Source: Membranipora membranacea
Taxonomy: Eukaryota > Bryozoa > Gymnolaemata > Cheilostomatida > Membraniporidae
Assembly (NCBI GenBank): GCA_914767715.1
Contig: OU612069.1
Coordinates: 9,545,387-9,609,386, forward strand
DNA: 64,000 nt
Direction of reading: 5' to 3'
A program made the translations under genes and the position numbers. Under the pieces are notes generated by a model. The model searched no databases. It saw only the letters and a program-made list of their open reading frames with translations, and had not been told where the DNA came from. Below, piece after piece: positions 5,845-63,433 of this stretch. The stretch's first letter is position 1, and the number at the start of each line of letters is the position of its first letter.

Positions 5845-6045
5845 TCAGCGCAACATGTCAATCATAGCGATATGCTGTCCATTTAGATGTAACTTTACAG
5901 GCCTATTGTTGTGCTCGAAATTGAGCTGAATGCTGCCAGTTTTGCGGATATTGAACGTTGTGTCTGACATGCCAAGTGGCACTGGAATTACTACTCCGAG
6001 CATGTCATTGTTATCCTGCTCAGGATAAGATGGGCGTGGAGGCAC
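5845..6045 (-). other. Unexplained minus-strand reading frame, 66 residues
   Basis: Read on the minus strand, a frame runs from just inside the first exon of the large gene to a stop at about 5842-5844. A possible acceptor AG precedes it. The composition looks protein-like rather than low-complexity, ending with an alternating strand pattern (IRKTGSIQLNF, then VKLHLNGQHIAMID). This loosely recalls the C-terminal strands of capsid-like genes carried by Polinton-type elements, but the resemblance is too weak to call. It overlaps the start of the large gene by 16 bp, so it is a relic, a promoter-region coincidence, or the last exon of an antisense transcript. Confidence 0.2.
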
Positions 6046-8319
6046 TCACAATGGTTCTTGGTGTGGTACTAGTGATGTTGACTGCTCTGCACTTGCCACC
6101 TGTGTAAGTAATTACCTCATTCTTTATCACAAGACATTGCAATGAGGCAAGCTAGTGAGTTCTCGAGATCCATCGAGACGAACAAGCCAAGGTTGTGACA
6201 TTGTTTTGGCTACAATAGCGTGTGAACTCCACAGCACAATGTGCAGGTGTTGCCGGATCTGTGTTCAAGCCAGACTGACATTGAGATTTCTCTATTATGT
6301 GTATCTCTGATCTTTAGAGTCAATTTAGTGGCAGGACCTAACATGTACCCACCCCTAATTAATAAAATTGAACATGGGTCGACACACCAAATTCCTTGTG
6401 ATGGTACTACTACTTAGTGAATTAATTCACTCTCTATTGATCAGAGATATATATGCAATAGATAGTATATCACGTGATCAGTATGTGTTCAAGCAGCTCC
6501 TATATTGTAAGGTTGTCATGTCTGCCACTAGGCTCCCTGCTGCCACTTGTGTTTTCAGTTTGCATGCATGTGTGTACATAAAAAACTGTTTCAGGCTCTA
6601 TAGGCATATTACACTGAATCATTCTTTATCAATTAATTTGTAGTACTATACCACACTATCAGTATATACACCTCTTCGGTCTTGCTGGATCAGTGTGTCT
6701 CGCTATAGTGTTAGATTTATATCTCTTCCAATACCGGTATAACAACCAATTAAGTCTTTGTCAGGAGCAGGAGTATATATAAGGTCAAGGGCAGCCTAAA
6801 GACTATTGCCAAAGAGTAAAGCATGTTATAGTCAGGCAGTTACTTACGATAAAGTTGTGTCAGATTTGCATGGTAAAAATATTCTATGCATTACTTGTCA
6901 TGAATTATTGATGGCGGAAAGAATGCCTTCAATAAAGGGAAGGTAACTCCACTTCTCTGCATAATGATGTCATATTAACGCCAGTTGGAGCATTGAATTT
7001 TTTTACAATGCAAATCTGACACAACTTTATGATAAGTAACTGCCTGACTATAACATGCCTTGGTATTTGGGTAGTCTTTAAAATAATCATAATTTTAATA
7101 CTTTGACAGAACTGCGACTACCGATTCCTTGCCTTATGACAACACAAAATGTGTAAAATCACATCAGTTTCACAATGGAGATCTGGGTAACTATTACAGA
7201 GGCACAGCAAACATCGGGCTGTTCGGCAGACTCTGCAATGGCAGCCGCTCTGAGTAAGTCTTCAAATCTCAAACTGGGTCTCTCAATGTCTAGTCTAGAG
7301 GGGTGAGCCTTTGTATTGATTGTATTGTAGGGTCAGACCTAGAGCTGCGCCAATTTTTAAACGGCAAAACAAGTTGATACTACAATCATGAATTTATTAT
7401 AACCATCTCACTATTTATTATTTATGATAAACATGCTCACAAGAATCACCTCAAACAGATTCAGTTCATCAAACTTTAGCTGACATTGTAATGCATCTCC
7501 CATAAATTTAGTTCACCACTCAGGGCTCTCAACCACTCAGATTTAGTCTGAGTTACTCAATTTTTGTGTGTTCAACTGATGAGGGGATTTTGGAATATGA
7601 GCTAAAAACTCAGATTTTGTCTCAAATTTGTATACGTTTGGGAACTCCTCCTAGTTTGCCCTCATTTTATGATTATAAAGAAACTTTTTGATGTTGTAAT
7701 AATATATGGAACACAATAACAAGGATGCAGTTTACAGTGGTTCTACATTGAACATCTGCTAACAACTCTAAAATCCGAAAGGTTCATCTTAAGAGATCTA
7801 AATTGTTCTCTCGGCTGCGTCGACCAATCCCGTATAAGATGCTTCCAGAGCCCACATACCCTCAGCTGTTTATGCACAAGACGCTTCACGCCTTTGAGAT
7901 GCCACTAACCGATAATGGCAAAACTTAGGCTTTGAATCCTCGATGGTCGAGAGCCCTGACACCACAGTTGCATCATCTTATGTTATGTCTTATAATAATA
8001 TACTAAAAATCTAAGAATAAAAACATGTCAAATCTTTTCCCGTTTTTTTATGTCCCAAGATCCCTTCTCTAAGTCATCCTTTTAACCAATTGCAAATGTC
8101 ATTTTGACCACAGCCTTGTTATCAACTGCAAAAACTAAAAACTAATTTTTGTCACAATTTTAATCTTTAGTGATGAATTGTATACATGGTCAAGGCACAA
8201 TAAATACTGCCGATGGTCTGCAGTGAAGTTTGTAGGAGACAGGAGAATGAACACACACGCTGCCTGGTGCTATGATGAGGATAATAACGAGATGGAATGT
8301 GAGATCTATCCCTGCCACT
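6030..8319 (+). CDS. Exons 1-3: signal peptide and kringle domain
   Basis: Exons 6030-6103, 7110-7253 and 8171-8319 encode residues 1-122. Exon 1 is almost entirely a hydrophobic leader ([16 protein letters not shown]), and its donor is a consensus GTAAGT. Exons 2 and 3 give six cysteines at about residues 39, 67, 86, 106, 116 and 121, with YYRGT after the first, YCRW at the third, AWCY at the fourth and ECEIYPC at the end. This spacing, over about 83 residues, is the kringle pattern. In known proteins kringles bind ligands such as lysine side chains; whether this one does cannot be seen. A domain split across two exons by a phase-2 intron is normal for kringles. Confidence 0.8.
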
Positions 8320-11300
8320 GTAAGTGCTATATTTATAACATCATTAGAACTGATATTTCAGAGATCCAACTCCAATAACGACGCGGTGGATGGGAAAAGT
8401 ATGAGGGGGAGGTATGTTTGCAACAGCAAAATGTTCTATGAAAAACTGAGGCATGTTATTTACCCAAGACGAGTAAAGTAATCGTGGGAGGGAATGTTCC
8501 CCTTTCCGCCTTTGTTAAAAATGGAGAAAATTCATGCTAATCAATGTCTTTAAACTATATGAGCTCCCGCCTTAGCTTGCGATATTTAGTGCTAGCTAGC
8601 ATATTGTCACCCCAAAATAGCTAGTTTCAACTTGAGCTAATGTTTACTCTTCAATGGTAGATCCCGTGTTAGTGCTCAAACTTTGCCTGGGTTGCTGGCG
8701 CTGGCATTTCTTTATAAACCACATCCCAAGAGTATCGAGTTATCGAATTCGAATAATTTGTTTACCTTTTCAAAAAACACAACTTACTCATGACATCCCT
8801 TTGATATGAATTTATGGCTCAGCGGTAAAATATATGCGTGGCTATTTGTGGAGATATGCCGTCAATATAAAGCTTTATGTCAGGATCTAATTAAAAACAT
8901 AAATCTGGCAGCTTTTACATTATGCATTGATTGATGTCCCAGTAACGACCATCAAGATCTCAGGCAAGCTGCTTGACAAAAATTTACCAGGGTCAGCTAT
9001 AACAGATTCTGAACTTGTGGACCAATCAAAGATGAGAAATGCGGTCCAGCAACCATACGTAAATAGCCGTACGCTTGTTCAGGGTCAGATATGTTCCCCT
9101 CATCCATAATATAATATATATCAGTGTGACATTCCCTTTTCACAGCTGATGGGCCAGGTTCTGAGAGTCAGACTACATATATAGGGAGAACGCACTTATC
9201 CATTCATTCTAAGACTATGGTGGTATACTACCGAGGAGTCCCAGGAGCAGATAAGCTGTACTACACTTACTATCCGAGGAGTATACAATGCATTGTCGAC
9301 AGGGCGCCATATGATGTATACACTGACAATACTATACCGGAGAACATCCAATCTTATAGAGGCGATGTAAGTCTATTTATCTTTTGAATGTACACTCCCG
9401 CAATGTCCAGTCCTATCTAAAGTAAAGTGGTAAGGTATTGATGATGTGAAAAGTTTTTGGACTAAATGATAATAATGCCCAACTTTTGGATACTAGCGAT
9501 AAAAAAATGTTTATGTTTAAGATTAAAATGGGTGTTAACATGTGTGAAAAAAGCGCATCATCTATATTAGATTTAATTATCAGTGGACTTCACCTAGCCC
9601 TGTGACAAGCCTACACTGTACCCAGTAACCTACCATGTCCAGAAATACAGAATACATTCTTATTTTGTAGTATTTATTGTGTTTTTTGTTCTTTTATCAG
9701 ATGATCATTGAGAATGTATTTCTGAATATATATGTAAAGAATAGAAGACTAGACGAGAACCACCTAACAGCCGATCAGTACAGCGGAAAGATTGGGTGTA
9801 TCAAAAACCAGAAATATATCTCAGCATCTATCAAACAAGGTAGTATCATTTCTCTGTAGTGTTAATGTTGGTTGAGGTGGTAGTGGTGTTGGCAGAAGTG
9901 GCTGTGACGGGTATCAGTGGTCATTGCGGTGTTGTTAGTTGTAGTGGTGGTGTTGTTAGTTGTAGTGGTGGTGTTGTTAGTTGTAGTGGTGGTGTGGTGG
10001 TGGTGGTGTGGTAATTGCAAACTAAAGATCAGGGTAATCCTAGATCAAGATTGATCCAAATTGACTTTCTTGGAATTGCATCCCTTCACTCATAAGCCAT
10101 AGCTTATCAGTAGTATTGTAGTAGTAGTGTTATTGTTGACAGTGGTGGTTGTAACAGTGAAGCAGTATTGGTTGCGTAGGGTGAACTGATAGTTGTGTAA
10201 GTTGCATTGGTGCTGTCAGTGGTTTCCTTAGTGGGTTAGTTAGTGGGTTGTAATGGCGGTAGTGGTTATGACAGGCCGGGGTATCGGTGTTAGTAGTATT
10301 TTCGGTGGTGTTAGTGGTGATGTTGTAGGTGCCGTTTATTGAACCTGATGTTCGAAATGATTGAACAGTATTTTGCTATAGCATTGTGAAGGTGGTGTCT
10401 CATCTGACATTTGACAACAAGGTATTTGTGACTTTGGGAAAGAGCCAGGGGGGTCTTTCAATTAGAAAGAGTGGTCCTTTACTAAAGCAAATTATCACTA
10501 TCACATCGCTCAAAATTATCACTCACTTGGTGTTTCAATTAGAGAAAATCGCTCCCAAATCGCTCAATCACAATGTATAACATAGTTCCATCAAGTGACT
10601 GAGCGATCTGAAAGCGAGGCCCCTAGCAGGTATCGCTCACTCACTGAGTGAGCGATAAGATTGCGATTTTGGCTGTTTCTAATGGAAAGACCCCCTTGTA
10701 TCCCACTTCTGGCTCAATATCACAGGCTGCTTGGTGTCATGTCATTATATAGCTTTGAGTGTTTATAATAGCATTGAAAGCTGTGATAGCATATAGCTTA
10801 TGTGATAAAAGCTTTGCTCTAACACCTGTCTGTGTTGGTACTGGCCTTATGATCGCTTCTCGGCCTATTGGCTAAGATCAAAATGTCACTGCCAACGGAC
10901 AATTAGTGCCTGTTTCAGTTTTTGGCAGCTTGCTGCACACTCACAATTAGGAGGTCCTCTATGGCCTCACCTCTAAGGATGCATTCTAGTTTTCTAGGAA
11001 GTTTTGTGTCCCTCTTTAGGGGCAGCCCACCCTCTGTTTTGTCATAAACAGGGCCTTATGACCAGTGGCTTTTCAACATTGGCCTTAGGGTGAATGATCA
11101 CCCCAAAGCTACTTTTATAAATATCACTGCTCATACTGCTGTTGTGGTTGTAGATACCCTGACTGATTTCTTGCATTGGGAATGTCAGCCCAACAGTGCA
11201 TTCTGTACGATTACGGACTGTGGAGGATTCTGGTCTGACAAAGAGTACAGGTACAGTGGTAGAGAACCTAAAGGGAGACACTTCTATAGAGAAGCGCTAA

Positions 11301-14300
11301 CGTGAGTCCTCAACACCCTACACAGAAGTGAAGGTCATAGGCTGCTACTAGGGACCACAATGATCTATGATATACTATCGCGTGTATATCTCTGATCGAT
11401 AGGGAATAAACTAATTCACTTAACCAGAGTACCATCACAAAGAATTTTGTGTGAAGTTCCGTGTTAAATTTTGTTAATTCGGTTTGGGTACATGTTAGGT
11501 ACTGCTACTAAATTGACTCTAACGATCAGAGATACACATCATGATAGTGGTAGTCTCGATGTCAGTGTGACAAGGGACAACCAATTTCGGTTTTGCTTTG
11601 TTTCAGTCAGTTTAGTACAGTCACCAGCATTGAGATTTTATAACTGTACATGGCTTTATTGAGATACTCATCTCATAACCCATGAGAAGAATTTGATACT
11701 TTCATTGAGATTCTAGTATTGACCTCAAAGCATCTATCTAATCGATTAATTAATCAAGATGTTGTCATAACTCAGTTGTAACAAGGAGTAACTCCTTGGT
11801 TGTAACCACTGATATATATTATATGTATGAGGGGAACATATCTGACCCTGAACAAGCGTGTGGCTATTTATGTATGGTTGCTGAACCGCATTTCTCATCT
11901 TTGTTTAGTTCACAAGTTCAGAATCGATAATAGCTGACATATGTTAACTTTTGTCAAGCAGCGATTCTGAACTTGGGGACCAATCAAAAATGAGAGATTC
12001 AGTCCAGCAACCATACATATATAGCCATACACTTGTTCAGGGTCAGATATGTTCCCCTCATCCATATAATATATATCAGTGGTTGTAACTTGTCTTTTTG
12101 TGCAATCATACAATGTTTTTGAGAGACAGTAAAAACTAACTATACTTTTCTCATTGCTGTCATTGCCTGTGATGGCTCTGTTATGATTGGCTATTGGGTG
12201 GACAATCAGAGCCAACACATTGGCTAGTCATTTCCCACCTTTTATGATTTAATGATTTTATTGCAGGTTCTCTCCAATAGATCCGACTACATTCTTCCAA
12301 AAAAAGGCTCTAGCTGACAAATTTGTTGAATTCTTCTGGGGTAAGAGTACTACGTAAAAGCCGCATTGAAACAAAACTACAATAAGTTGCATTTAGGTCG
12401 AGTTGTTGATTAATTAGAATTGTACAACTCATCAGTTTCCATGTAGGGATTGCTACCACTGTTGTGTCGGCTGTGGCCTCGTGGCGAGACAACTCTAACG
12501 CTCAATCATTTATCCTCTAACAGGCATGTATCCTTATTTAGAATATGATTTGAGTAATTTGAATAACATTAGATAACCCAATTACTCAAATCATATTCCA
12601 AATAAGGATAGATTGCCTATTAGAACATAAATGATTGAGCACTAGACGACGCCACATCAGTGAACACAACCACTGACCCAAACTGCAGACCCACAGACAA
12701 TTTGTGACATTCCAGTGTTATGATTATAATAGAATGTCAAAAAGTCTTGCTTGTCACTGTTTTTGAGTCCTCAAAACTCACGACTTGCATGGATCCTCAT
12801 TCTCACTCATTCATCATCATCAGTGGCGTATATTAGCACTCACGGCCCAATAGCTCAGTGTGTAGAGCGCCCGCCTAATAATCATTGTTAATAATATTGT
12901 TGTGGGTTCGAATCCCATCAAGGTCAGCTTTTTTTCAAATGGGTGCTTTATAACTGGAGCATTTTTACCGTAATCTTCTACTGCTATTGAGTTGTTTTCT
13001 GAAAGTACCCAACAGCTCAGTGAGCCATTGAAATACCTCTCTGCTTGCACTATTTTGCTACCGATATGCAAAAATTTTCGTGGTGGGAGGGCGCTTAAGC
13101 GCCCCTCCCACACCCTCCCCGCCACGCCTACGGCGTGTGGATCGGGCTGCGCCCGATTATTATGCTCATCTCTGAAAAGTCAGTGAGTGAAATTTTTTAG
13201 AATATACGCCCCTGATCATCATCATCTTATTAATCTCACTCGGAGTGCTTTGGCTTCTTTATCAAGATACAGTCTTTGTAATTGTCGGTAGAGAAAAAAC
13301 AGTTTGTCAACGAGATAAGAATACAGTTAATTATTCTTCGATTTAAAGCCCAATAACTAGCTACTGCCATGAAAAAAGAAATATCTATATGTAATATGTA
13401 AATGTAATATATATATATATATAAGCTTCAGATGTTGTTGTATCTCAGGTTCAGGACCAGAGCGAGTTGGGTTGAAGTATTTCAGCTGTGAGGCAACAGT
13501 CAGGACAACGAACATTTATCCAGACCTACACTATAACTCTACTCAGCTGAATTATGAGCTCAAAGAATTGGGGCGGAAATATCAACAGGACTTTGCTACG
13601 ATTCCCATGACAGGAGGCTGTAAGTTTCAAGCATTGATATGAATTTATGGATTAGTGGTAAAATACACAGTATGGCTATTTGTGAAAAAATTACATCAGT
13701 ATAACTTTTTGTCAGTAATTGGATATAGCTAAAATTTTGGCAGCTTTGTCGTTATGCATTGACTGAAGTCCCAGTAAGGCCCTTAAAAAACTCAGGTAAG
13801 CTATTTGACAAATGTTTACAAGGGGTTGGCTGTAGCATCACAGAACTTTTGGACCAATCGTAGATGAGAAATTATTTCTAGCAATCGTATGTAAATTGCC
13901 ATACGCCTGTTCAGAGTATATATCAGTGGTTTCAAGTGATTCAATGATTTTCCATTCAACGTGTTTCAACGAGTTTCAATGAGTTTCCTATAGTTTCCGT
14001 GAGTTACAATGAGTTGTTATGAATCAGTGAGTGAGAGAGCAAGTGAAAAGTAGAGCCGTGACCTGGAAAGATATGTAGCTGTGCCTGCTACCTTTATAGC
14101 TCAATAGTATACAGTTGCATGGGCATCACACTCAATCACATCAGTGCTCATGTATCTGTAAGAGCAGCCATTGCGGCCACAATGGTCATTTTGTTCAGCC
14201 AATTGCACCCTTACGTCGAAACAAGTTGAGACTGACACATTTTCTCGTCTTGTTCGAAAATAGAGGAAATTCCACAATATGTCCAATGATTGTCTTCAGT

Positions 14301-22972: not shown

Positions 22973-23026
<54 letters not shown>

Positions 23027-27977: not shown

Positions 27978-28008
<31 letters not shown>

Positions 28009-28009
28009 G

Positions 28010-28058
<49 letters not shown>

Positions 28059-29495: not shown

Positions 29496-29560
<65 letters not shown>

Positions 29561-38080: not shown

Positions 38081-38135
<55 letters not shown>

Positions 38136-56100: not shown

Positions 56101-59100
56101 ATATAAAACACAAAAAAGTATTATTCGTTATTTGGACTGCATATTAGGTCGAAATCACTGGGGCACTCAAACTAAAGCATGGAGCTGATAATAATGTGAC
56201 TTAGTACATTATGTACTCTCTAATTTAAACCAACAATTTTAAAAAAATACTCTTTACCATATACAAGTAAAAACGCACATATAGAGCAGAACTGAAAGAG
56301 GGGTATGATGCTATGCAATTATGCAGTATGAAATGATTGCTGATATGCGATGCGCACTTCAACAGTTATGTATAACCCAATCATTTTCTGTTTGAAGCCT
56401 GTACTCCTGAGTCCGGTTGCTCTGAGCATTCTTCCTGTGTATCTGGTAACTGCTATCCTGAATGTAGCTCAGTCAGATGTACTAGAGCTCCTTGGCTCTC
56501 CTGCTACCAAGGTACATTGTAAATTGTGAATAATATTTAGTTCATGAATGTGGTTCTACTTTTGTGATTCTGTTATTTGCATAGTTATACACAGTTTTAT
56601 ATAAGTGTTTGTATGTATGTATGTATGTATCCTATCTTATTATCTTACTCTCTAGATTTAGGAGAATGAATAGTATTGATCTTCACTCAAGAAGACGTCA
56701 CGCTTTAATTTTTAAGATCCTATTGATTTGTACGGCTTGGAAGCAGTGGGGTCTCGTTCTTCTTCGAAAACTGCGCAATCTATAATTGCGTTTACATATC
56801 CCGACAACTTCCTATTTGTTAGTCTTATATTTTTTAAATGGTGACTCTTCATAAACAAGGAGTCTACTGCCAACCAACAGTCTATGAGACCTTTATTTGG
56901 AACCAAATCAGAAACGTGGGACAAGTGACAAAATCTTATTTTGCTACTTTGCCACATATTTCCAATTTTTGACAGCAATGCATTTATTTTTTATTTTATT
57001 TTATTTTATTTTATTTTATTTTATTTTATTTTATTTTATTTTTATTTATTTGTTTGTTTACCATAGGAACCTGTACACTGACATGTACACATGATGAGCA
57101 GTGTGATAGTGATCAGTTCTGTACGTCGGGAGGACTTTGTGCGCTGAAGTGTGATACACTGGAGGGATGTGCTTTAAATCAGCTATGTGCAGATGGGCAG
57201 TGCATGGCATCCTGTCACGATACATTACATAACTGTACTCAGGGGGAAGTGTGTCTTTTTGGTCACTGCATCTCTCTATGCACTGCAGGTAGGGTACAAA
57301 CTTAACCGATGAAGTCATTTCCAAGTGACAATCATCAACTGAGCCACAAATTATTTCACCAAGTCATGAGTCATTGCTGTGTCAAAAATCATTACTCAGT
57401 CATGAGTCATTAACGAGTCACAATGTTAATCCCGAGTTCTGTATGAATTGTTCATTGTCATATTCCCTCATCCAATGATTTATATTTATCAGCTAAAATA
57501 TTAATTTTGACTTGACCATCCATTTTACATTCACTAGCCGAGAAAAGAACTCAAGCAGTTGTTGTCAAATGTATGACAAATATCTTACAGATTCAGAATG
57601 TTCGGGCGCCTGTGTTGAGGGTTTGTGTGGTATGTCCTGCACTTCAGACTTAGACTGTGATTCTGGTAAACACTGTCAAGCAGGTAAATGTATTAAAGGC
57701 TGTAAGGATGACTGGAACTGTCCACTAGACCAGATATGTCTACAGGGATACTGCTCCTCTCCTTGTCAGGTGAGACTCTGTCTTCTCTATTCACTAGGTT
57801 TATTTGATCTTTTTACTGCCTTCAAGCACATAGTAGGCCTCCTGTATTTATGGTCCTGACCCCAACTGATCTGGCTAGGATGAATGGGTTGCCAGTGCCA
57901 AATCAGAAATGAGAGCCGGCGCCGGGAATCGAACTTGGATCATAAGACCACAAGTCCTTACCCTTAACAATCAGACCTCTCCTCCTAACCTGACTCTTGA
58001 TGCATATTTCTGTCACTTACCAATCTTATATTCTGGACGAAGTCACATCAGGGAGAATGGAGAATTCTCCCTGGTCACATTGAAGCAAATAAAGTGTATA
58101 TGTGAAAAAAATTCAAAGAGCAAATATCCAAATAAGGCCAAAGTCTGCATCACAACTTTTAGCGACTGTCTGACAAAAGGCCAGTTTTAACCGTAAACCT
58201 TTTGTAATGCAATGTAGATGTAATGCGATGTAACTCATAGGAGTGACAGGATAATATCAGAAATATGTTTGTAGTCCCCCCCCTTGAAGTTAACTTGCAA
58301 TTATTTGTATTCTTTATTATATTTTTTTTTATCATTCAGCCATCAGAAGAAGGATGTCGTGATACTTGTATAGAGACATCACAATGTGCTGCCGGACTGA
58401 CCTGCCAAGAGAACACCTGCTCTGGCAGCTGTTATAAACATGAAGACTGTGGTAAAGCTGGCTATGTGTGCTCCTCTGACGGTGAGGCAGATTTGATATA
58501 AGACCACCCAGAGGCCTAACCACTAAATATAGTCTGTCAGCTATATCTGCAGTATTTATGCAGTATTTTTACACTGAAAAGATTCATCACTGCTCTAAAG
58601 TAGATAGATGTGATAGGTTACTGGGCTTGTTCAGTGTACATAAGTACCTCATAGAGGAGCAGTTGGGGAGGGGGAATTCTTAGCACTAAACATAGTTTTA
58701 CCTAGATATGTTATGAGATTTTCTATGTAATATTATTGCAGAACTAGCTGATAGATCTTTCGGTAGTCTTTGACTGGGACGATTAAAAGTTCACCAAGTT
58801 ATAACTTTGAAACCCGGAAACATAATATAAACATATACATGTCATGGTACATTGCCGTACAGAATCAGAAACATATGACTGCTAGTGACTTGAGCATTGA
58901 GCAACTTCCATTACACCTATAGTTAGTCACATCTTCTTCATGTTATTTTGGGTGTGCATATTTTAGTTAGAAATGATTGGGAGGGGGGTCAATGACTCCT
59001 AACCTGAGTAAATCCTATACGACTCAGAAACCAAAAGGATTAAAATAAGTGAAACCAATCACCATTTTGTAGAGAATCCAAGATGCGATGGTACATACGA

Positions 59101-62100
59101 TGCCTGCGGACCGCTGACAAGTGTGGATGTGGAGGCTAAACAGAGATCAGCCATAGACCCAGGTAAATATCACGCTATAATAATATGGTAAAGTATCGCA
59201 TGTATATCGTCGATCGATAGAGAGTAATTTAATATGATTACCATCAACAAGGAATTTGGTGTGCCAACCCATGCTAATTTTATAAATTAGGGGCAGGTAC
59301 AGACTAGGTATTCTTACTAAATGAACTCTAGCGATCAGAGATACACACGCTAATAGTATAGTCTCGGTGTCAGTGTTGGTAAATACCTCACCTGTGCTAT
59401 TCAGAACCGAGAAGCCAAAGTCAAACAGTGGATCCAGTCTGGGTTTTTTTGCAATATCCGTCTGACTTGATATCAGTGGTAGTATTCCCAGACTATGCTT
59501 GAGGTAGATGACATGAAGAGCTGATATGTGTAATGTTATTTTACATTATTCACTTTTACCCAAAGTGTGCCACTTTCGCATGTCAAACATCTACACTTTC
59601 AATTGCATTTTTTTTTCTAAAATAATTATAAAATGTGTAGCGCACATAAGCGAAATTGTTAGCCCTTTTCCATTACCTAATAGCTGCGAATCTGCCGTTT
59701 CATCAAATCTACGCATACAAAATAACCCTAATTTATAATCTCACTCATCTGCCTCTCTCCTTCCTTTTTCCCCTAATTGTCTGGCTCTAGGGCTAGCTAC
59801 AAATCCACTCATAATCAATCATTAACCAACTAAAACATTGATGTTGTGACCACAAATGTTGCAATTTTCACACCTGTCGCAATCAACCACAATTGATGCA
59901 ATCATGGACCTTTTTTTCTCTATTTATCACTTGAATTACGATTGATTTCAGAGTTGTGTTCTGATTGGGATAAAGCTAAGTGTGCGGCAATTACAGATCC
60001 ATCAGATTGCACAAAAGGTGAGTGTGCAACAATATATGATAATAATGATAATTAAAAATGATAACGATAGAATAATATAATGGTAATTATAATAAAAAAA
60101 ATAATAGACACGATAATTGTTATACGTTTTCTGCCTTTCGTCTTGTCCTCGCCATGAGCATAGTAACCTCTAACTTTCATAGGAGGACAACTACAAGTGT
60201 AATTCTTTAGAGATCATTGTAAAGCTTGGTTATATCTGAGAGATCAGTGCTGGGTCAGGTGATGTTAAATACTCATAGACATCGATAAATAGGTGCCTAA
60301 TCTGTTTTTGCGGTTTTCGTTATTACTGGTTGACCAAAATCAGTGTTAGGGATTTATGCTGTTATAGCTTGTTAACTTGATGAATTTGAATGTACGGAAA
60401 AAGCCTGTTACCCCCAGATAGTAGGCAGGATACGTGGGTTAGTTTTTCAGCTAGCCCATTAAGTTCATTCTTGAAACAATCCCTACCACTGATTTTTTTA
60501 TATACAGAAGATTCACGAAAAGTGGAGCGACTCCTAAGAGCGGCTTAGGCTCTATTGGCTCTATTTCTATGTAAATACTGGTTTGAGTCATGAGAAACAT
60601 CACCCAACAACATACTTGTCCAAGTCACTCTTTAGTCATGATCATAACTTCATCTAGTACCCATTGGGATGCTTGTTCTCATCTATATAGTGAAAGTTGA
60701 ACCAAATCACTGATCGATGATACAATACAATGTACATTGATGTTTATAATTACAGAACAGGCTCTACAGTGCTGTGCCACCTGCTCATACAGATCTGGAT
60801 GTAAGGTTATAGACGATGAAGATTGTTATGATTTGTACAGCCCTTCTCACTGTTACTCCAGTGTGTTCCGCTCAACGTGCTGCATCTACTGTGAATATAA
60901 CAGAAAGGTAAATTATAGTCTTAGTGCTCAGATGGCTGCCATCTGAGCACTAAGACTAGGTTCATAGTAGCTGAGTTACTGCCAATTAAGTGGACAGTCA
61001 ATTGATTGCAGAAGGGTGCAGATAAATTGATACGTCCAATTATAGAGCACAAAATTATGAGACCTGGCCAATCATATTTGTCCAATTATCTTTTTGCTAG
61101 TCGTATCTCAATCTGCCATACAACAAAACCTCTGTCTATATTGTTCTAATGACATTTTTACTGCCATATAAACCATGCAGTAATATGTTTTGCACTATAT
61201 CTTGATCAAGCTCTTTTGAACCTAGCTGGTGTATTGGCTCTGATAGGCTGGTGGGTTGGAGAGAGCCAATGCCGGGTCGGATGGTACATTTCCTGAAAGT
61301 ATATAATTGTATATATAGTGAATGTGAAAACAATTTAGCTCACTATGGATCAATATAACTCTCAGGTGACTGGCATTCTCCCTGCTGGCATAAGCTCTCT
61401 TTCCCACCAAATAGCCAATCAGATCAGAGCAAACTAGTTGGATACTTTGAATCATGTGACCTGTATTGTAACCCAGCAGCCAATCAGATTAAAGCAAACT
61501 AATTGGCTATATTGAATCACACTGCTTGTATTGTAGAGCTACTTGGGTGAGAATCACAGATACGGTGATAGACATGATTCCTGTAGTAAGGATGATTGTG
61601 GATCTACTGCAGAGTATGATGATGGCTGTGCTGAGACCTGCTATCAGGAGACATATAAACCATACGAGGTCACTGATGGTAAGAGTCCCCGCCACTGATA
61701 TGAATTTATGGATCAGTGGTAAAATGCATAGCGTAGCTATTTATGGAGATATGCCACAAGTATAAAGCTTTGTGTCAGGATCTAAGTAAAGCTATAAAGC
61801 ACAATATGCATTGATTTACGTTCCATGAACTTTATGAGAGATACGGTCCAGCAACCATACATGAATAGCCATACGCTTGCTCAGGGCCAGATATGCACCC
61901 CTCACCCATATAATTATATCAGTGGTGTCAACCGCTATCAATAAATTGTGGCTCAGTCAGGCCAAACAAGATACACCAGTGATGCTTATTGATTCTGTAA
62001 CAAAATTTTAAGGAAGGACCACTCTCTCCAGTGTTATGCTTGCAAGACTTGAAAAGCAGTGTTCCCATGCCAACCAAGACAATAACCAAACACAAGCCGC

Positions 62101-63433
62101 TGTGGTTCACCCAGTGATTGTGCTATGAGTGAATAATTTTGCCATGGTCGTACAAGGAAAAATTGTCGAATTGTCATCGTTACATAGATGTCTACTCAGT
62201 TGTTGTGTGGCAACTATTGCTCTTGAATGCAGACATCAATGGTCGCAATATCAGGTCATTTTTCTATTGGAATTGATATAATCTCCTATTCCCAACTCAA
62301 ACACCTGACTCTTAGAGAAAATAACCAGCAAAACAAATACAAATCAACTACATTAACTGACCTGATGTCATGTCATGTCATGTCATGTCATGTCATGTCA
62401 TGTCATGTCATGTCATGTCATGTCATGTCATGTCATGTCATGTCATGTGATACCATAGATGCTGGCAAAAGAAAATTGTCAACTCTGTGCTGTTATAGTT
62501 CCCATTCTGTTTACTTTATTTTCAGAAAATATCCAATGCGCTGACGCTGGACCTCATTGTGCTAAAATACCAGTGGTATATCAATGTCTCAAAAGTACGT
62601 CTTGGTCATTGTATAATAATGAGTATGAGTATATATGTATGGTCATATATGTCAAACTTTCTTGTAAAATTTGTAAAATATTGATTAAGTATCTTTTGAC
62701 ACAACGCTCAACTCCTTTATAACACAAAAATGCTTTGCTTTTGGGTGGATTAACTCAATGTTAAGTAAGCGAGAGTTCAAGTTACCCCCCCCCCCCTTAT
62801 TACTTGGTGAGAGTGCGGATCAAAACTCACAGATATACTTCTATCAAGATCAACTATCAAACATAACCGCTGGTGTTGTTATGGTCTTGTTCAATTTTAT
62901 TAATTTGGCAGTTTTTTTTCAACACATGTATGTATTTGTGTTCCTTCTTAAATCAGCAGTTTGATGTACTGGAGTGAATTGCACTAGATAAAAAGAGTTA
63001 GCAGTAAAATACACCGGAGTAAAATATAAAATTATAAAAATGGATACTAAATATTACGTTGAAAATGAGAGTATTTACAAAAAAAAATGACACTGACTTT
63101 ATTTACATGTGTGTTTCAGCTGAGTCAGTTGAGTGTTGCTCGACATGTGTAGAGTTAGCTGGCGGTTGGGATAAAGCAGATGACTGTTATGAGAACGATG
63201 ATGGGCCTTCTTGCTATAGAGAGGCGCACAGGGCTACGTGTTCGCTCTTCTGTGAATTCAAGAGAAAGGTCAGGACCTTGTCATTGTTGTCAATTTTCGG
63301 TGGGGTATTACATTTTATGTACATACTTTTTTTTTTATTGTCAGTCTACAATCACTGTTTCGAATGTTTTTCATGCAGTGAAAGAAAAGACTTGAAAAAT
63401 AAGAAAAAAGCAACCGGAATAACATCTTGTTAG
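6030..63433 (+). CDS. Giant kringle/TSP1/cysteine-rich array surface protein, 66 exons, about 3,581 residues
   Basis: A single plus-strand gene model built exon by exon. All 65 junctions use GT-AG and every donor phase matches the next acceptor; the total is 10,746 nt, exactly divisible by three, with no internal stop. Domain order: signal peptide (1-24), kringle (39-121), unrecognised region (122-560), TSP1 (561-598), unrecognised region (599-1065), two TSP1-like exons (1066-1188), an array of short four-cysteine units (1189-3334), two ShKT/PLAC-like modules (3335-3527), possible transmembrane helix (3531-3552) and a Cys/Lys-rich tail. The start is ATG 6030, because it opens a hydrophobic leader ending at a GTAAGT donor; ATG 6051 is a second in-frame choice. 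A secreted or membrane-anchored adhesion or recognition role is inferred from the domains only. Several introns hold copies of the neighbouring exon boundary. It could in principle be two genes, but no internal stop or second signal peptide supports a split. Confidence 0.85.
6268..6480. repeat. MITE family A copy in intron 1
   Basis: Begins near CTGACATTGAGATTTC and ends near AGAGATATATATGC, with the family blocks TGTATCTCTGAT, AACATGTACCCACCCCTAATT and GTGAATTAATTCACTCTCTAT between. Confidence 0.75.
6797..7081. repeat. MITE family B copy ending just before exon 2
   Basis: Inverted arms CTAAAGACTA ... TAGTCTTTA and GTCAGGCAGTTACTTA ... TAAGTAACTGCCTGAC, plus GTGTCAGATTTGCATGG and its complement. 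The right end is about 27 bp from the exon 2 acceptor. Other copies: 16229-17260 (interrupted), 28391-28550 (partial) and 63852-64000 (cut by the window end). Confidence 0.8.
8802..9126. repeat. MITE family D copy ending just before exon 4
   Basis: Runs from GATATGAATTTATGG to ATATATCAGTG and ends about 19 bp before the exon 4 acceptor. Related copies: 13634-13930, 11806-12088 (foldback arrangement), 49505-49605 (reverse, partial) and 61694-61925. Confidence 0.75.
9146..17470 (+). CDS. Exons 4-11: unrecognised N-terminal globular region
   Basis: Exons 9146-9366, 9701-9839, 11154-11301, 12267-12340, 13449-13619, 14773-14930, 15982-16205 and 17292-17470 encode residues about 122-560. Cysteines are sparse, and the sequence is rich in Tyr, Ile and Arg with alternating hydrophobic stretches that suggest beta structure (for example [10 protein letters not shown] and [16 protein letters not shown]). 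I recognise no domain. Exon 10 has two close AG candidates (15976-77 and 15980-81); only the second keeps phase 0 in frame. Exon 6 likewise starts at 11154 rather than at the upstream ATG. The region lies between the kringle and the first TSP1, a place where other proteins carry catalytic or binding domains, so a divergent known fold is possible. Confidence 0.75.
9895..10015. repeat. GTGGTGTTGTTAGTTGTA minisatellite
   Basis: About three copies of a 24-bp unit followed by GTGGTG runs, in intron 5. Confidence 0.8.
10448..10698. repeat. MITE family C copy with GGGGGTCTTTC termini
   Basis: Left end GGGGGTCTTTCAATTAGAAA; right end CTAATGGAAAGACCCCC. The interior has repeated TCGCTC/GAGCGA motifs. 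Other copies: 17753-18190 (with a SINE inside), 44475-44716 and a decayed copy near 38650-38830. Confidence 0.85.
11362..11575. repeat. MITE family A copy in intron 6
   Basis: Reverse-oriented copy with ATATCTCTGATCGATAG at the left and GATCAGAGATACACAT towards the right. Confidence 0.75.
11806..12088. repeat. Large foldback built from family D ends
   Basis: Both halves carry CAGGGTCAGATATGTTCCCC or its complement with ATATATCAGTGG outermost, so the block folds on itself. The arms meet around 11940, near GTTCAGAATCGATAATAGC. Confidence 0.75.
12160..12225. repeat. Partial copy of the CCAACACATTGG family
   Basis: Contains TGATTGGCTATTGGG and CAGAGCCAACACATTGGC. Same family as 1575-1640. Confidence 0.6.
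12500..12641. repeat. Long inverted repeat in intron 7
   Basis: GCTCAATCATTTAT ... ATAAATGATTGAGC on the outside and TATCCTTATTT.GAATATGAT with its complement inside, giving a hairpin of about 140 bp with a few mismatches. Confidence 0.85.
12818..13216. mobile_element. Composite element with tRNA-like head and GTGGCGTATATT termini
   Basis: Imperfect terminal inverted repeats (AGTGGCGTATATT / AATATACGCCCCTGA) bound a block that starts with a tRNA-like stretch: an A-box-like TAGCTCAGTGTGTAGAGCG and B-box GGGTTCGAATCCC. The 3' half is GC-rich, with GGGCGCTTAAGCGCCC and GGGCTGCGCCC palindromes. It fits a tRNA-derived SINE carried in, or fused to, a non-autonomous DNA transposon. Confidence 0.65.
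13634..13930. repeat. MITE family D copy starting 15 bp after the exon 8 donor
   Basis: Begins at TTGATATGAATTTATGG shortly after the GTAAGT of exon 8 and ends at TATATCAGTGGT. Confidence 0.75.
16229..17260. mobile_element. Family B MITE interrupted by a foldback element that holds a tRNA-like SINE
   Basis: Outer family B sequence runs 16229 to about 16490 and resumes about 17203-17260 (AACTGCCTGACTACAACATG). Between them, arms of about 130 bp at roughly 16545-16680 and 17045-17190 are inverted copies (AGGAAGTTATGGCCTCTCAA and its complement). Inside, about 16815-16890 read on the minus strand is tRNA-like, with GATGGTAGCG and B-box GGGTTCTATTCCC. Three nested insertions are the simplest explanation. 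Confidence 0.7.
17753..18190. mobile_element. Family C MITE split by a minus-strand tRNA-derived SINE
   Basis: The left part (to about 17880) and right part (from about 18120) align with the uninterrupted copy at 10448-10698. The insert reads on the minus strand as GTAGCTCAGTTGGTAAGAGC, with B-box GGGTTCGAATCCC, then a tail shared with 48840-48975 and 35290-35420. Confidence 0.8.
18353..18464 (+). CDS. Exon 12: thrombospondin type 1 repeat
   Basis: The exon encodes residues about 561-598, with W-x2-W-x2-WSEC ([10 protein letters not shown]), then ISTC and RRNRTRIC, the classical tryptophan ladder and CSxTC-like start of a TSP1 repeat. Only the first half of the usual six cysteines lies in this exon; the following exon (19681-19832) supplies further cysteines ([14 protein letters not shown]), so the repeat probably spans both. 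TSP1 repeats are extracellular and often bind glycosaminoglycans or matrix proteins. Confidence 0.85.
18472..18530. repeat. CCATTGTGTTGG foldback 7 bp after the exon 12 donor
   Basis: GTGTTGGCTCTGATTGGCTG and CAGCCAATCAGATCTAACAC form the arms. Same family as 1575-1640. Confidence 0.75.
18624..18982. repeat. MITE family E copy
   Basis: Ends TTAAACCACTGCTGCCAC and GTGGCAGCAGTAGTTTAA are inverted, as are AATTTGCACAAACTGATCGTC and its near-complement inside. A second copy lies at 31956-32319. Confidence 0.85.
19200..19490. repeat. MITE family F copy
   Basis: Contains GCAGCAGTTTTATCGCAATA and CATGGCCTAGTAGGACTGAC. The copy at 20593-20910 carries the same blocks in the opposite orientation. Confidence 0.75.
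19540..19635. repeat. 35-bp tandem repeat upstream of exon 13
   Basis: Three copies of a unit containing AATGAAGCACCCCAAGCACC end about 45 bp before the exon 13 acceptor. Confidence 0.85.
19681..27032 (+). CDS. Exons 13-21: second unrecognised region between TSP1 repeats
   Basis: Exons 19681-19832, 20436-20552, 21721-21930, 22788-22900, 23183-23271, 23735-23907, 24985-25169, 25922-26096 and 26844-27032 encode residues about 598-1065. Exon 13 completes the TSP1. Exons 14-18 contain a beta-rich stretch in which [14 protein letters not shown] (about 840-853) resembles the strand E-F region of an immunoglobulin domain, although the conserved cysteines are not obvious. Exons 19-21 are Tyr/Phe-rich with few cysteines. 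In exon 20 the GTGAGT donor at 26097 is required for phase; the GT three codons of context away does not fit. No known domain is claimed. Confidence 0.75.
19845..20176. repeat. MITE family A copy, interrupted, 13 bp after the exon 13 donor
   Basis: Begins CACTGACATTGAGAT and follows the family to TTCACTCTCTAT near 20015. It is broken by an unrelated AT-rich insert to about 20155, then ends AGATATATACATGCAATAG. Confidence 0.7.
20593..20910. repeat. MITE family F copy, inverted
   Basis: GTCCTACTAGGCCATG at the left and GACTGACTCTTTAA at the right match the complement of 19200-19490. Confidence 0.75.
20936..21080. repeat. MITE family A copy, right part shortened
   Basis: CACTGACATTGAGACT, then GTGTATTTCTGATCGTTAGA, and a short right end AGAGATATACATGC. 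Confidence 0.7.
21940..22255. repeat. Tandem GGTCAGATAGTAGGTACTCT units inside the CCAACACATTGG family
   Basis: About two and a half copies of a unit near 70 bp, starting 9 bp after the exon 15 donor. The unit includes GATTGGCTGGTGGGTG and GAAAGAGCCAATGAG. Confidence 0.8.
22672..22745. repeat. CCAATGTGTTGG foldback before exon 16
   Basis: GCCAATGTGTTGGCTCTGAT and AATCAGAGCCAGCGCATTGG form arms about 30 bp long. Confidence 0.8.
22972..23075. repeat. (TGGC)n simple repeat
   Basis: Tetranucleotide run degenerating to TCGG/TTGG at the right. Open frames across it (Ser-Gln-Pro-Ala repeats) are artefacts. Confidence 0.95.
24092..24260 (+). repeat. Degenerate SINE-like copy
   Basis: AGAAGGTAGCTGTACCTGGG and TTCTGGGTTAAAATCTCGCAG resemble worn A- and B-box regions; the tail (CTGTTAACTAAGAGCAACCATG) resembles the 3' part of the SINE at 17880-18125. 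Confidence 0.45.
24798..24914. repeat. Foldback with a perfect 30-bp core
   Basis: 24822-24851 and 24861-24890 are perfect inverted copies around a 9-bp spacer. Imperfect outer arms (GACCAAAAC / GTTTTGGTC) extend it to about 117 bp. Confidence 0.95.
25584..25600 (+). repeat. G17 homopolymer
   Basis: An uninterrupted run of 17 G in intron 19. Its length is prone to sequencing error. Confidence 0.9.
26165..26385. repeat. MITE family A copy in intron 20
   Basis: GTATATCTCTGATCGATAGA at the left and GATCAGAGATACACATG at the right, ending near TCGATGTCAGTGTG. Confidence 0.75.
27838..28060. repeat. Worn tRNA-like copy followed by (GATT)n
   Basis: GCGCCATCAACGAAAAGATGG, AAGTGCGCTTGC and GAGTCCAACTGTTGGAGC match the layout of the SINE at 37165-37300. 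A GATT/GAGT repeat from about 27920 follows. Confidence 0.6.
28147..30022 (+). CDS. Exons 22-23: two divergent TSP1 repeats
   Basis: Exons 28147-28323 and 29831-30022 encode residues about 1066-1188. Each begins I-D-G-(N/G)-W after a phase-1 intron. Exon 23 has [15 protein letters not shown], then RNRECNNP and a terminal cysteine. Exon 22 has lost the middle tryptophans and the first cysteine pair but keeps [20 protein letters not shown] and later cysteines. Both are symmetrical 1-1 exons, the usual form for shuffled or tandemly duplicated TSP1 modules, and are clearly related (CNNPxPxxGG in both). Confidence 0.85.
28391..28550. repeat. Partial MITE family B copy
   Basis: Contains TTTCTTGTATTGCAC, GGGAGTTACCTTCATTTATGG and CATGCAAATCTGAC, as in 16260-16450. 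Confidence 0.65.
29456..29562. repeat. (GATT)n repeat with a GATC patch
   Basis: About 25 tetranucleotides, with three GATC units near the middle. Confidence 0.95.
30544..39616 (+). CDS. Exons 24-34: cysteine-rich array, blocks 1 and 2
   Basis: Exons 30544-30771, 31336-31445, 32416-32560, 33534-33776, 34661-34879, 35452-35616, 36153-36278, 36774-36967, 37589-37816, 38298-38457 and 39386-39616 encode residues about 1189-1871. The recurring unit is about 20 residues with spacing near C-x3-C-x5/6-C-x5-C-x4/5-C, for example CENEH-type [18 protein letters not shown]. It resembles EB-module and Dickkopf-N-like cysteine arrays, but a family assignment would need a profile search. Exon 34 ends block 2 with a Pro/Thr linker ([17 protein letters not shown]) and a CDC motif like that of exon 56. 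All introns are phase 1 or 0, as expected for module duplication. Confidence 0.8.
31956..32319. repeat. MITE family E copy in intron 25
   Basis: Near-identical in order to 18624-18982, including GAGCAAATAATTTGCACAAA; it ends at GGAAGCAGTAGTTTAA. Confidence 0.85.
32501..33410. repeat. 455-bp direct tandem duplication covering the end of exon 26, its donor and intron
   Basis: 32501-32955 and 32956-33410 are two copies with only two differences that I can see (ATACAATGGG/ATGCAATGGG; ACTAATTTT/ACTAACTTT). Each copy starts with the last 60 nt of exon 26 and its GTACAT donor. Each also contains an internal short repeat based on CCCACAATGCAAT. Confidence 0.95.
33797..34090. repeat. (TA)n run followed by MITE family A copy
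   Basis: TA dinucleotides to about 33826, then AT-rich sequence, then the family A blocks from TTTCTGATCCATAGAGAG at 33908 to TCAATGTCAGTGTG. Confidence 0.75.
35045..35179. repeat. Two adjoining hairpins
   Basis: Arms 35045-35076 / 35085-35116 (32 bp, two mismatches), then 35114-35141 / 35152-35179 (28 bp, one mismatch). The hairpins share TAG at 35114-35116. Confidence 0.9.
35290..35420. repeat. Decayed SINE-like copy before exon 29
   Basis: GACTGAGAAATGTTGCCTCAA and GAGCCAAGTTGTTCTGAGTT match the tail region of the SINE at 17880-18010. Confidence 0.5.
37165..37300 (+). repeat. tRNA-derived SINE-like copy
   Basis: ATGGCGCAAACGGTTAGCAC as A-box region and GTGGGTTCAAGTCC as B-box, on the plus strand. 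No closed acceptor stem, so not a functional tRNA. Confidence 0.65.
37932..38215. repeat. (GATT)n / (GGTT)n simple repeat
   Basis: Nearly 290 bp of alternating tetranucleotides between exons 32 and 33. It ends about 80 bp before the exon 33 acceptor. Confidence 0.95.
38619..38645 (+). repeat. Copy of the exon 33 end and donor
   Basis: CCTCTTCTGATCATTGC followed by AGTGAGC repeats the exon 33 boundary at 38440-38463 (CCTCTTCTGATCATTGC, then GGTAAGC), about 180 bp downstream in the intron. Confidence 0.8.
39600..40240 (+). repeat. Minisatellite made of the exon 34 donor region
   Basis: More than 20 units of about 27 bp built around CAATATACTGTAAGTGTGGATAGTC. The first unit is the real exon end (..ATATACT) and its GTAAGTGT donor, so most units repeat a consensus-like donor. 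At 39891-39955 a longer piece of exon 34 (starting TGACTGTGTGAC) has also been copied into the array. Confidence 0.95.
40504..46528 (+). CDS. Exons 35-42: cysteine-rich array, block 3
   Basis: Exons 40504-40700, 41696-41864, 42195-42424, 43026-43131, 43541-43748, 45095-45321, 45675-45752 and 46352-46528 encode residues about 1871-2335. The four-cysteine units continue ([18 protein letters not shown]). Exon 38 is short (106 nt) and was found by phase logic: exon 37 ends in phase 0, exon 39 needs phase 1, and 43026-43131 supplies exactly that, with a clean acceptor and two cysteines. Exons 40-41 form a distinct longer unit (CWRQTDC ... [14 protein letters not shown]). Exon 42 is an EGF/EB-like piece with a CVCPDG core. 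Confidence 0.8.
41845..41950 (+). repeat. Three-copy repeat spanning the exon 36 donor
   Basis: The TCGCTTCCTGTAATTCAGGT boundary at 41847 recurs as TCACTTCCTGTTCTTCAGGT and TCACTTCCTGTATGTCGAGT at about 30-bp spacing, with a fourth partial unit. Confidence 0.9.
43941..44325. mobile_element. TTAA-flanked terminal-inverted-repeat element, 377 bp
   Basis: TTAA at 43941-43944 and at 44322-44325 flank inverted ends AGGGCAACCAAGGTTTC ... GAAACCTTGGTTGCCCT. A TTAA target duplication is typical of piggyBac-type elements. No transposase frame, so non-autonomous. Confidence 0.85.
44475..44716. repeat. MITE family C copy, inverted
   Basis: GGGGGGTCTTTCAAATAG ... CTAATTGGAAAACCCCC, with GATTTGAGAGTTGTTTTG and AAGACCAAGTGAGTGATAAT inside, the complement of 10448-10698. 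Confidence 0.85.
46132..46310. mobile_element. TA-flanked MITE with CAGTG ends
   Basis: TACAGTGCAGTTCACTTAATT at the left and AATTAACCAGCTTACACTGTA at the right. TA duplication and CAGTG-type ends fit a mariner-like non-autonomous element. Confidence 0.7.
46955..47045 (-). repeat. tRNA-derived SINE-like copy, minus strand
   Basis: GTGGGACTCGAACCCAC is a complement B-box; GCACCAATCGCCTGGCAGTG lies where the anticodon arm would be. It resembles the copy at 37165-37300. Confidence 0.65.
47145..55776 (+). CDS. Exons 43-56: cysteine-rich array, blocks 4 and 5
   Basis: Exons 47145-47281, 47766-47970, 48202-48392, 49073-49221, 49674-49906, 50201-50329, 50652-50738, 51141-51307, 52052-52181, 52661-52845, 53375-53522, 53813-53922, 54626-54770 and 55543-55776 encode residues about 2335-3085. 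Exons 47-48 repeat the long-unit plus Pro/Thr-linker arrangement of exons 40-41 and 33-34 (CAIHEDC ... [12 protein letters not shown] ... [11 protein letters not shown]). The end of exon 45 and the start of exon 51 are close relatives (NGICMEKC in both, with similar nucleotides). Exon 56 has [14 protein letters not shown] and CTC, matching exon 34. Exon 49 has a weak donor (GTCTGT). Confidence 0.8.
47282..47470. repeat. TGTTGT/TGTGAT repeat immediately after exon 43
   Basis: A low-complexity tract starting at the donor. Read in the exon frame it gives an apparent run of cysteines, but GTAAGT at 47282 and the loss of spacing show it is intron. Confidence 0.8.
48840..48975 (-). repeat. SINE tail copy, minus strand
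   Basis: GCCTGCAAACTGAGAGGAATT and GCGGGCCCGCCCTCAAG match, inverted, the tail of the SINE at 17880-18010. Confidence 0.55.
49935..50045. repeat. (GTT)n-like repeat in intron 47
   Basis: GTTGTTGTT-rich tract after exon 47; the valine-rich frame across it is not coding. Confidence 0.85.
51480..51830 (+). repeat. tRNA-derived SINE with long unrelated tail
   Basis: GGCCAGTGGTTAGCGTGTCTG (A-box region) and GTCGTGGGTTCAAACTCCG (B-box), followed by about 280 bp of body ending near CTATGCCGCACCTCGGTGC. Confidence 0.7.
54193..54443. repeat. 250-bp terminal-inverted-repeat MITE
   Basis: ACCCACTGCTGGTAAAAAGC and its complement GCTTTTTACCAGCAGTGGGT form the ends, continuing into TTATCTCATAT / ATATGAGATAA. 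Confidence 0.9.
56398..59162 (+). CDS. Exons 57-61: cysteine-rich array, block 6
   Basis: Exons 56398-56511, 57067-57288, 57591-57769, 58340-58481 and 59073-59162 encode residues about 3085-3334. Exons 58 and 59 hold the most regular units in the protein ([35 protein letters not shown]). This regularity suggests recent duplication or strong constraint. Exon 61 is short and less cysteine-rich ([19 protein letters not shown]) and forms the boundary to the C-terminal modules. Confidence 0.8.
56985..57050. repeat. (TTTTA)n pentanucleotide repeat
   Basis: About 11 units directly upstream of the exon 58 acceptor; it may serve as an unusually long pyrimidine-rich tract. Confidence 0.95.
57850..57985 (-). 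repeat. tRNA-like SINE copy, minus strand
   Basis: GCCGGGAATCGAACTTGG is a complement B-box, with CTTACCCTTAACAATCAGACC as complement A-box region. Confidence 0.6.
59174..59378. repeat. MITE family A copy after exon 61
   Basis: GTATATCGTCGATCGATAGAG at the left, GATCAGAGATACACACG towards the right, ending TCGGTGTCAGTGT; it starts about 12 bp after the donor. Confidence 0.7.
59952..63433 (+). CDS. Exons 62-66: two ShKT/PLAC-like modules and possible transmembrane C terminus
   Basis: Exons 59952-60017, 60756-60907, 61537-61678, 62526-62594 and 63120-63433 encode residues about 3335-3581. Exons 62+63 and 65+66 are paralogous pairs: a short exon with C-x3-D-x4-C-x8-C, then CC-x-TC (QCCATC, ECCSTC), then D-x2-DCY ... 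SxCY ... RxTC-x3-C and EYNRK/EFKRK. This resembles ShKT and PLAC cysteine frames but matches neither exactly. Exon 64 is a separate acidic cysteine-poor spacer. After EFKRK the frame stays open for 54 codons and encodes a hydrophobic segment ([20 protein letters not shown]) and a Cys/Lys tail to TAG at 63431-63433. The alternative is a weak GTCAGG donor at 63269 joined to AG at 63378, giving an immediate TGA. Confidence 0.75.
61205..61510. repeat. Foldback of the CCAACACATTGG family before exon 64
   Basis: TTGGCTCTGATAGGCTGGTGG on the left and CAAATAGCCAATCAGATCAGAG on the right, with a tandem CAATCAGATTAAAGCAAACT piece; it ends about 26 bp before the exon 64 acceptor. Confidence 0.7.
61694..61925. 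repeat. MITE family D copy 15 bp after the exon 64 donor
   Basis: Starts ACTGATATGAATTTATGG and ends TATATCAGTGGTG, shorter than the copy at 8802. Confidence 0.75.
62366..62450. repeat. (TCATG)n pentanucleotide repeat
   Basis: About 16 units in intron 64, roughly 75 bp before exon 65. Confidence 0.95.
62785..62796 (+). repeat. C12 homopolymer
   Basis: Uninterrupted cytosines in intron 65. Confidence 0.9.

Follow-up and report, generated by a model that had tools for sequence, protein, structure and literature searches.

A clustered family of predicted giant cysteine-rich membrane receptors in the bryozoan Membranipora membranacea, with an 84-exon gene model for one member

The stretch of Membranipora membranacea DNA considered here (the window, 64,000 nucleotides on contig C5, with positions counted from its first base) holds most of a predicted giant gene, which is real and runs past the window edge. 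Exons 1 to 66 of 84 lie on the + strand at 6030-63268 and the remainder at 64112-75755, outside the window. Upstream, on the same strand, 3134-4112 is the end of a separate gene whose exon ends were placed by eye, and whose C-terminal part scores 23.2 bits against the PB1 domain (cut-off 23.6). Two kinds of repeat are found within the giant gene. The first is a 27-bp tandem array of 23.5 copies at 39607-40248, which is largely intronic, its first bases touching the end of exon 34. The second is a dispersed family in introns (11366-11549, 26169-26352, 33884-34067 and others), of which two other copies match the reference copy at 78% and 68%; this family may represent a short transposable element.

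Only two stop-to-stop frames of at least 150 codons (164 and 184) are present in the 64-kb window, so that the claim of a giant gene depends on splicing. The exon chain was obtained with a semi-Markov splice-graph predictor of our own, which uses generic donor and acceptor matrices and a codon model trained on the giant gene itself, followed by curation by eye and hand. Depending on the setting the automatic predictor returned 113, 66, 81 or 72 exons, and because of this variation the final chain was curated by hand, most heavily in the N-terminal third. Under one setting the best chain scored 567.0 on the + strand versus 42.7 on the - strand, and in all eight first-order Markov resamples the best-chain score (14.5-29.2) stayed far below the + strand value.

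An earlier sequence-only reading of the window had proposed a complete gene of 66 phase-compatible exons and about 3,581 codons, ending at 63433. The chain from the ATG at 6030 stands, the curated in-window version having 66 exons and 3,543 codons when exon 66 is extended to the proposed stop; its completeness does not, as the full model has 84 exons. An alternative in-window chain of 67 exons (3,505 aa) avoids the read-through by a short extra intron, and this intron, at 76 nt, is an outlier among 65 others of at least 231 nt. The outlier intron, together with the overlap of the supposed membrane helix of the read-through with a T-rich tract, led to the examination of 100 kb of the same contig on each side of the window. 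The predictor was restarted at exon 66 and the downstream sequence inspected; one weak additional exon (64994-65041) and the part of the chain past 75693 were removed or corrected on visual inspection, and 18 exons were added to the 66 in the window. In a tblastn search with the in-window protein all 12 rows outside the window fell no more than 5.3 kb past its end. Positions 63269-63433 (+ strand), previously taken as coding, are the start of intron 66 (843 nt), which is followed in phase by exon 67 at 64112-64238, and the stop lies at 75755. The C-terminus at 63433 is thus rejected as an artefact of the window edge. That the protein nevertheless ends there, whether anchored in the membrane by the hydrophobic read-through segment or secreted, is very improbable: the read-through frame is indeed open for 55 codons and includes a hydrophobic 19-mer at 2.26, but 3.1% of 55-codon windows in the introns of the giant gene are open by chance, the hydrophobic codons past 63268 are those overlapped by the T-rich tract, and exon 67 continues the CC-x-x-C module of the preceding exons and has a counterpart on contig C8 that is 51% identical over 35 aa.

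The full model (84 exons, 6030-75755, + strand) has a coding sequence of 13,686 nt for 4,561 aa with 481 cysteines, of which the sequence-only reading saw about three quarters. All 83 introns are of the GT-AG type, 54 in phase 1, 20 in phase 0 and 9 in phase 2, with lengths of 207-1,507 nt (median 602). The junctions had been expected to be free of stops and frame breaks, and so they are: there is no internal stop, the single stop being at 75753-75755, and where both members of a neighbouring exon pair can be tested, that is among the 70 of 83 non-terminal exons with exactly one open frame, 60 of 60 pairs are phase-compatible. In 81 of 83 introns no GT within 40 nt is better than the chosen donor, and in 73 of 83 the chosen acceptor is the best AG; such frame and splice-site tallies are figures of consistency and not independent proof, since the boundaries were partly picked by the same scores. 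The least certain exons are exon 19, whose acceptor scores -0.9, and exons 81-84 of the tail; these tail exons were placed by the predictor alone, without paralogue support, the coding score of exon 82 being -0.5 or 1.9 by setting.

The N-terminal part, or head, of the protein starts in exon 1 (6030..6103, + strand), which by eye and hydropathy contains the start codon and a signal peptide (residues 1-27). It is followed in exons 2-3 (7110..8319, +) by a six-cysteine kringle-like module that is very diverged. The six cysteines and the motifs YRGT, YCR, WCY and CxIxxC align with those of kringle proteins (MAFFT), yet unlike these the joined exons (98 aa) match no Pfam family at E<=10, nor does exon 3 of the paralogues on C6 and C8, in which this exon is conserved. 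A kringle profile was built from nine PDB kringles and three from the same genome, and scores were ranked against cysteine-fixed shuffles. Here exons 2-3 rank 85 of 1,000 (84 of 999 shuffles score higher), and exon 3 taken by itself ranks 135 of 2,000, compared with 44 of 1,999 for its C8 paralogue and 9 of 1,999 for that on C6. Kringle exons above the cut-off are present at four other places in the genome. The N-terminal kringle of the earlier reading is not upheld by Pfam, the similarity to the kringle profile is not significant for the giant gene and mild for the C6 and C8 paralogues, and exons 2-3 are possibly a decayed kringle, at best a very diverged one.

Two orphan regions make up much of the remaining head, and their ~830 aa match no known family. 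The first, N1 (exons 4-11, 9146..17470, +, 416 aa), has no match to any Pfam family, and pieces of it are conserved in paralogues. The second, N2 (exons 14-21, 20430..27032, +, 418 aa), carries sub-threshold Pfam labels only, such as Ig_CD22 at E=0.17; exon 18 within it (23735-23907, +) shows by eye an Ig-like DxxDTGLY strand, and exons 19-21 have no match in the paralogue DNA examined. Between the two regions exon 12 (18353..18464, +) encodes the first half of a TSP1-like repeat that is matched in the C6 paralogue, exons 12-13 reaching 19.9 bits for Pfam TSP_1, below the cut-off of 21.6. Two further TSP1 repeats in exons 22-23 (28147..30022, +) exceed this cut-off in two stretches (PF00090, 37.9 bits, with exon 22 scanned in a shorter form), in agreement with the TSP1 repeats proposed from the sequence alone.

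The head is followed by a cysteine array in exons 24-60 (30544..58481, +) that consists largely of ~21-residue units of the pattern C-x5-C-x5-C-x2-G-x-C-x3, similar to DUF7107. The units continue beyond the window in exons 68-80, and the whole cysteine-rich stretch (aa 1167-4256) spans 3,090 aa with 447 cysteines, interrupted by CC-x-x-C cassettes. A unit profile, self-trained on 23 array units, has 39 matches in the in-window protein, 49 in the whole protein and 54 in the six frames of the window, 46 of the last being in exons. Among the eight non-exon matches only one, at 32967, scores above 12 bits, and it belongs to a duplicate of the 3′ portion of exon 26 (32956..33015, +) that lies within a 455-bp tandem duplication at 32501-33411 (~99% identical). 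This copy was left out of the model because no acceptor was seen before it.

Pfam scans of two long pieces returned nothing, and the chain was therefore scanned in short pieces. DUF7107 (PF23416) reaches 36.6 bits (cut-off 24.6) in the piece with exons 67-72, with its best stretch in exons 68-69, and exon 68 is above the cut-off in a profile search of the genome as well. Exons 58-60 fall just below the cut-off at 23.6 bits, and other array pieces score 13.8-19.5 or have no match. As only one stretch passes, the remaining array was assigned by the unit pattern. The EB module (PF01683, best 21.8 bits, cut-off 24.3) and Dickkopf_N (PF04706, best 19.1 bits, cut-off 25) remain below threshold. The long cysteine array in one chain that had been described earlier is thus confirmed, with DUF7107 above cut-off at one place; the difference from known DUF7107, EB and Dickkopf_N repeats is that here 49 units are strung along a ~3,100-residue stretch of a predicted membrane receptor with an orphan head. 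A DUF7107 profile search of 14 control genomes gave no match, and the word DUF7107 was not found in the literature searched. Outside the loci of the family described below, a DUF7107 exon above cut-off is present at C4:2122598-2122741, with more cysteine-rich frames nearby. Many units of the DUF7107 type are also seen in P0002, a protein of 2,334 aa from a 22-kb ENA contig that by eye is phage-like, and such repeats may occur outside animals.

The array is interrupted by CC-x-x-C modules, those in the window being encoded by exons 61-66 (59073..63268, +), where the three-exon cassette 62-64 recurs as 65-67. The sequence-only reading had regarded them as ShKT/PLAC-like ends. They lie within the chain, some 1,000 residues from the C-terminus, and exons 62-66 match no Pfam family at E<=10; the same is true of two C8 counterparts. 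A separate gene at C8:5.168 Mb (C8:5160001-5170000, positions 5361-8234) contains a counterpart of the cassette with the same intron phases, in which two exons match by sequence (37-51% identity) and the match of the first is limited to cysteine pattern and phase.

Only two segments of the 4,561 aa reach a Kyte-Doolittle value of 1.6, the N-terminus and residues 4278-4306, and a transmembrane helix is predicted at ~4282-4303, its exon lying outside the window. Hydropathy therefore predicts a type I single-pass protein, composed of a signal peptide, an ectodomain of ~4,280 residues, one helix and a Ser/Lys-rich tail of ~255 residues. For three paralogues the DNA at the final C-terminal match was examined, and all three ends contain the transmembrane exon, entered in phase 0 and left in phase 1, with a C-x5-C-x4-C start followed by the hydrophobic helix. 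This pattern, defined after inspection of these ends, occurs once in 264 kb on both strands, in the giant gene itself. The designation as a surface protein is in this way supported by an exon beyond the sequence on which it was first made. The 255 residues after the helix are 23% Ser and 16% Lys, with 10 SP and 5 KSP motifs; Pfam labels there are sub-threshold only, and no enzyme domain was found in the tail. A sequence search of the genome with the transmembrane and tail stretch detected no paralogue at E<=0.01, and the tail may not be a signalling device common to the family.

Relatives outside the genome were sought among 5.77 billion proteins by a method that needs shared 5-residue words and similar length, with queries covering all but the last ~1,070 aa. 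Residues 1-1700 had one match, to a fish thrombospondin-2 (43% identity over 6%), for which the TSP1 repeats are presumably responsible, and the array with the CC modules also had one, to P0002 (27% identity over 24%). With residues 1-3400 of the 3,505-aa query, none of 874 candidates passed E<=1e-3. The earlier view that the architecture has no named match is borne out to the extent that this word- and length-limited search, without the last ~1,070 aa, yielded no whole-chain relative, and no description of such a chain appeared in the titles and abstract openings returned by the literature searches made. TSP1 repeats are present in some thrombospondins. Pfam scans of pieces of the chain detected none of the domains that define the C-terminal region of thrombospondins, namely EGF, type 3 repeats and an L-type lectin/Con A-like domain. 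In the literature searched, the giant proteins of early animals that come closest in their relation to TSPs are the mega-thrombospondins, for which an Ig-like domain is reported in sponges (PMC6526912), and they differ from the present chain in the C-terminal region that defines thrombospondins. The giant gene shares with the thrombospondin superfamily and the mega-thrombospondins the character of an extracellular protein of early animals that is very large and has many domains, and it differs from thrombospondins in its transmembrane helix and cysteine array.

Within the same genome (339 Mb in 18 sequences) paralogues were sought with queries from three parts of the chain, and the counts of matches are lower bounds. 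At least 31 matches were obtained with the N-terminal query, 21 in its own exons and 10 elsewhere among the matches listed. The array query gave at least 52 (12 in the giant gene and 40 elsewhere among those listed) and the C-terminal query at least 46 (likewise among those listed, 18 in the giant gene and 28 elsewhere, including the separate C8:5.168 gene). Grouped by place and strand, a grouping of our own that counts loci from matches and does not equate them with whole genes, these represent at least 11 loci including the giant gene, eight of them on C5. Head, array and C-terminal part occur together in the giant gene, at C5:7.726-7.804 (+) and at C5:8.603-8.659 (-); head and C-terminal part at C6:1.236-1.288 (-) and C8:1.944-1.965 (-); array and C-terminal part at C5:3.914-3.951 (+), C5:7.979-8.009 (+) and C7:14.600-14.627 (-, two matches only); head and array at C5:7.897-7.932 (+); the array only at C5:7.948-7.962 (+); and the C-terminal part only at C5:8.567-8.570 (-). 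The paralogue matches to head, array and C-terminal exons are collinear with the giant gene, and 10 kb of the C6 locus match exon 3 as well as parts of N1, TSP1 and N2 in the order of the giant gene, the individual pieces being 27-43% identical.

The degree of divergence among the copies is uneven. In the region of the exon-37 counterpart (~575-600 nt, introns included) the copies at 7.95 and 7.98 Mb are 98.8% identical, that at 8.62 Mb is 96% identical to both, and that at 7.92 Mb 81%; other copies around exon 37 stand at 40-54% nucleotide identity, and the giant gene is 40-47% identical to six other copies. Two head exons with their flanks are 95% identical over 753 nt between 8.658 and 7.897 Mb. 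By these sequence comparisons the giant gene is one member of a clustered family, some members of which were copied very recently.

It is very likely that the gene is one membrane-receptor gene of a family. The head, with its kringle-like module, two orphan regions of ~417 residues and TSP1 repeats, would bind an extracellular ligand; the disulphide-rich array of ~3,100 residues would act as a long stalk that keeps the head away from the membrane; and the tail might connect to the cytoskeleton or to adaptors via phosphorylation sites. A predicted binding head, a stalk and a tail with phosphorylation motifs together suggest an adhesion or recognition receptor, its likeliest task being cell-cell or cell-matrix adhesion or recognition at the surface. 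That the task is of this kind rather than structural is judged moderately probable from the architecture. A structural matrix or coat protein, mechanically strengthened by the disulphide array and simply tethered by the membrane anchor, would suit the 481 cysteines in 4,561 residues with their dense array at aa 1167-4256, and TSP1 modules, as in this chain, are common in matrix proteins; such a protein is nonetheless unlikely in view of the transmembrane exon, kept in three of three paralogue ends, and the long charged tail.

The adhesion or recognition receptor could also be of a more special kind, a family of polymorphic allorecognition (self/non-self) or immune receptors whose heads would differ from copy to copy and from one individual to the next and would tell self apart from non-self or microbes. 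Allorecognition receptors such as those of the Hydractinia ARC and Botryllus fuhc are clustered, lineage-restricted families of surface proteins, and the Hydractinia proteins are of the Ig type and much smaller than the 4,561-aa predicted receptor. Sponge aggregation factor is marked by Calx-beta and Wreath domains. The allorecognition or immune reading is favoured by at least 11 loci with eight on C5, by near-identical copies beside strongly diverged ones, and by a family that is lineage-restricted as far as the protein searches reached. Duplication alone, however, is frequent among structural and adhesion families as well, no Calx-beta domain was found when the chain was scanned with Pfam, and the nearest copy found is ~0.9 Mb away, tblastn with the full protein having placed 0 of 230 rows outside the giant gene in the surrounding 264 kb. 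The clustering and the recent copies fit a recognition family and do not prove one, and the allorecognition or immune reading is regarded as rather unlikely, if the least so of the alternatives. The giant gene probably belongs to a clustered family, still undergoing duplication, of giant type I membrane receptors for adhesion or recognition.

Genes of this kind can be hidden or truncated by a fixed window, by exon-wise annotation and by protein searches that are limited by length. To our knowledge the receptors for self/non-self recognition or tissue cohesion in early animals are mostly unknown outside a few models. A tentative proposal, held slightly below the allorecognition reading and a little above the structural one, is that M. 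membranacea has a new clustered recognition system, in which at least 11 loci would specify giant type I receptors and would diversify by recent segmental duplication for self/non-self or partner recognition. These receptors would combine an orphan head with a disulphide "mast" and, at least in the gene modelled here, a tail that can be phosphorylated. A cluster of giant receptors that have an orphan head and include recent copies would provide a concrete and testable set of candidates.
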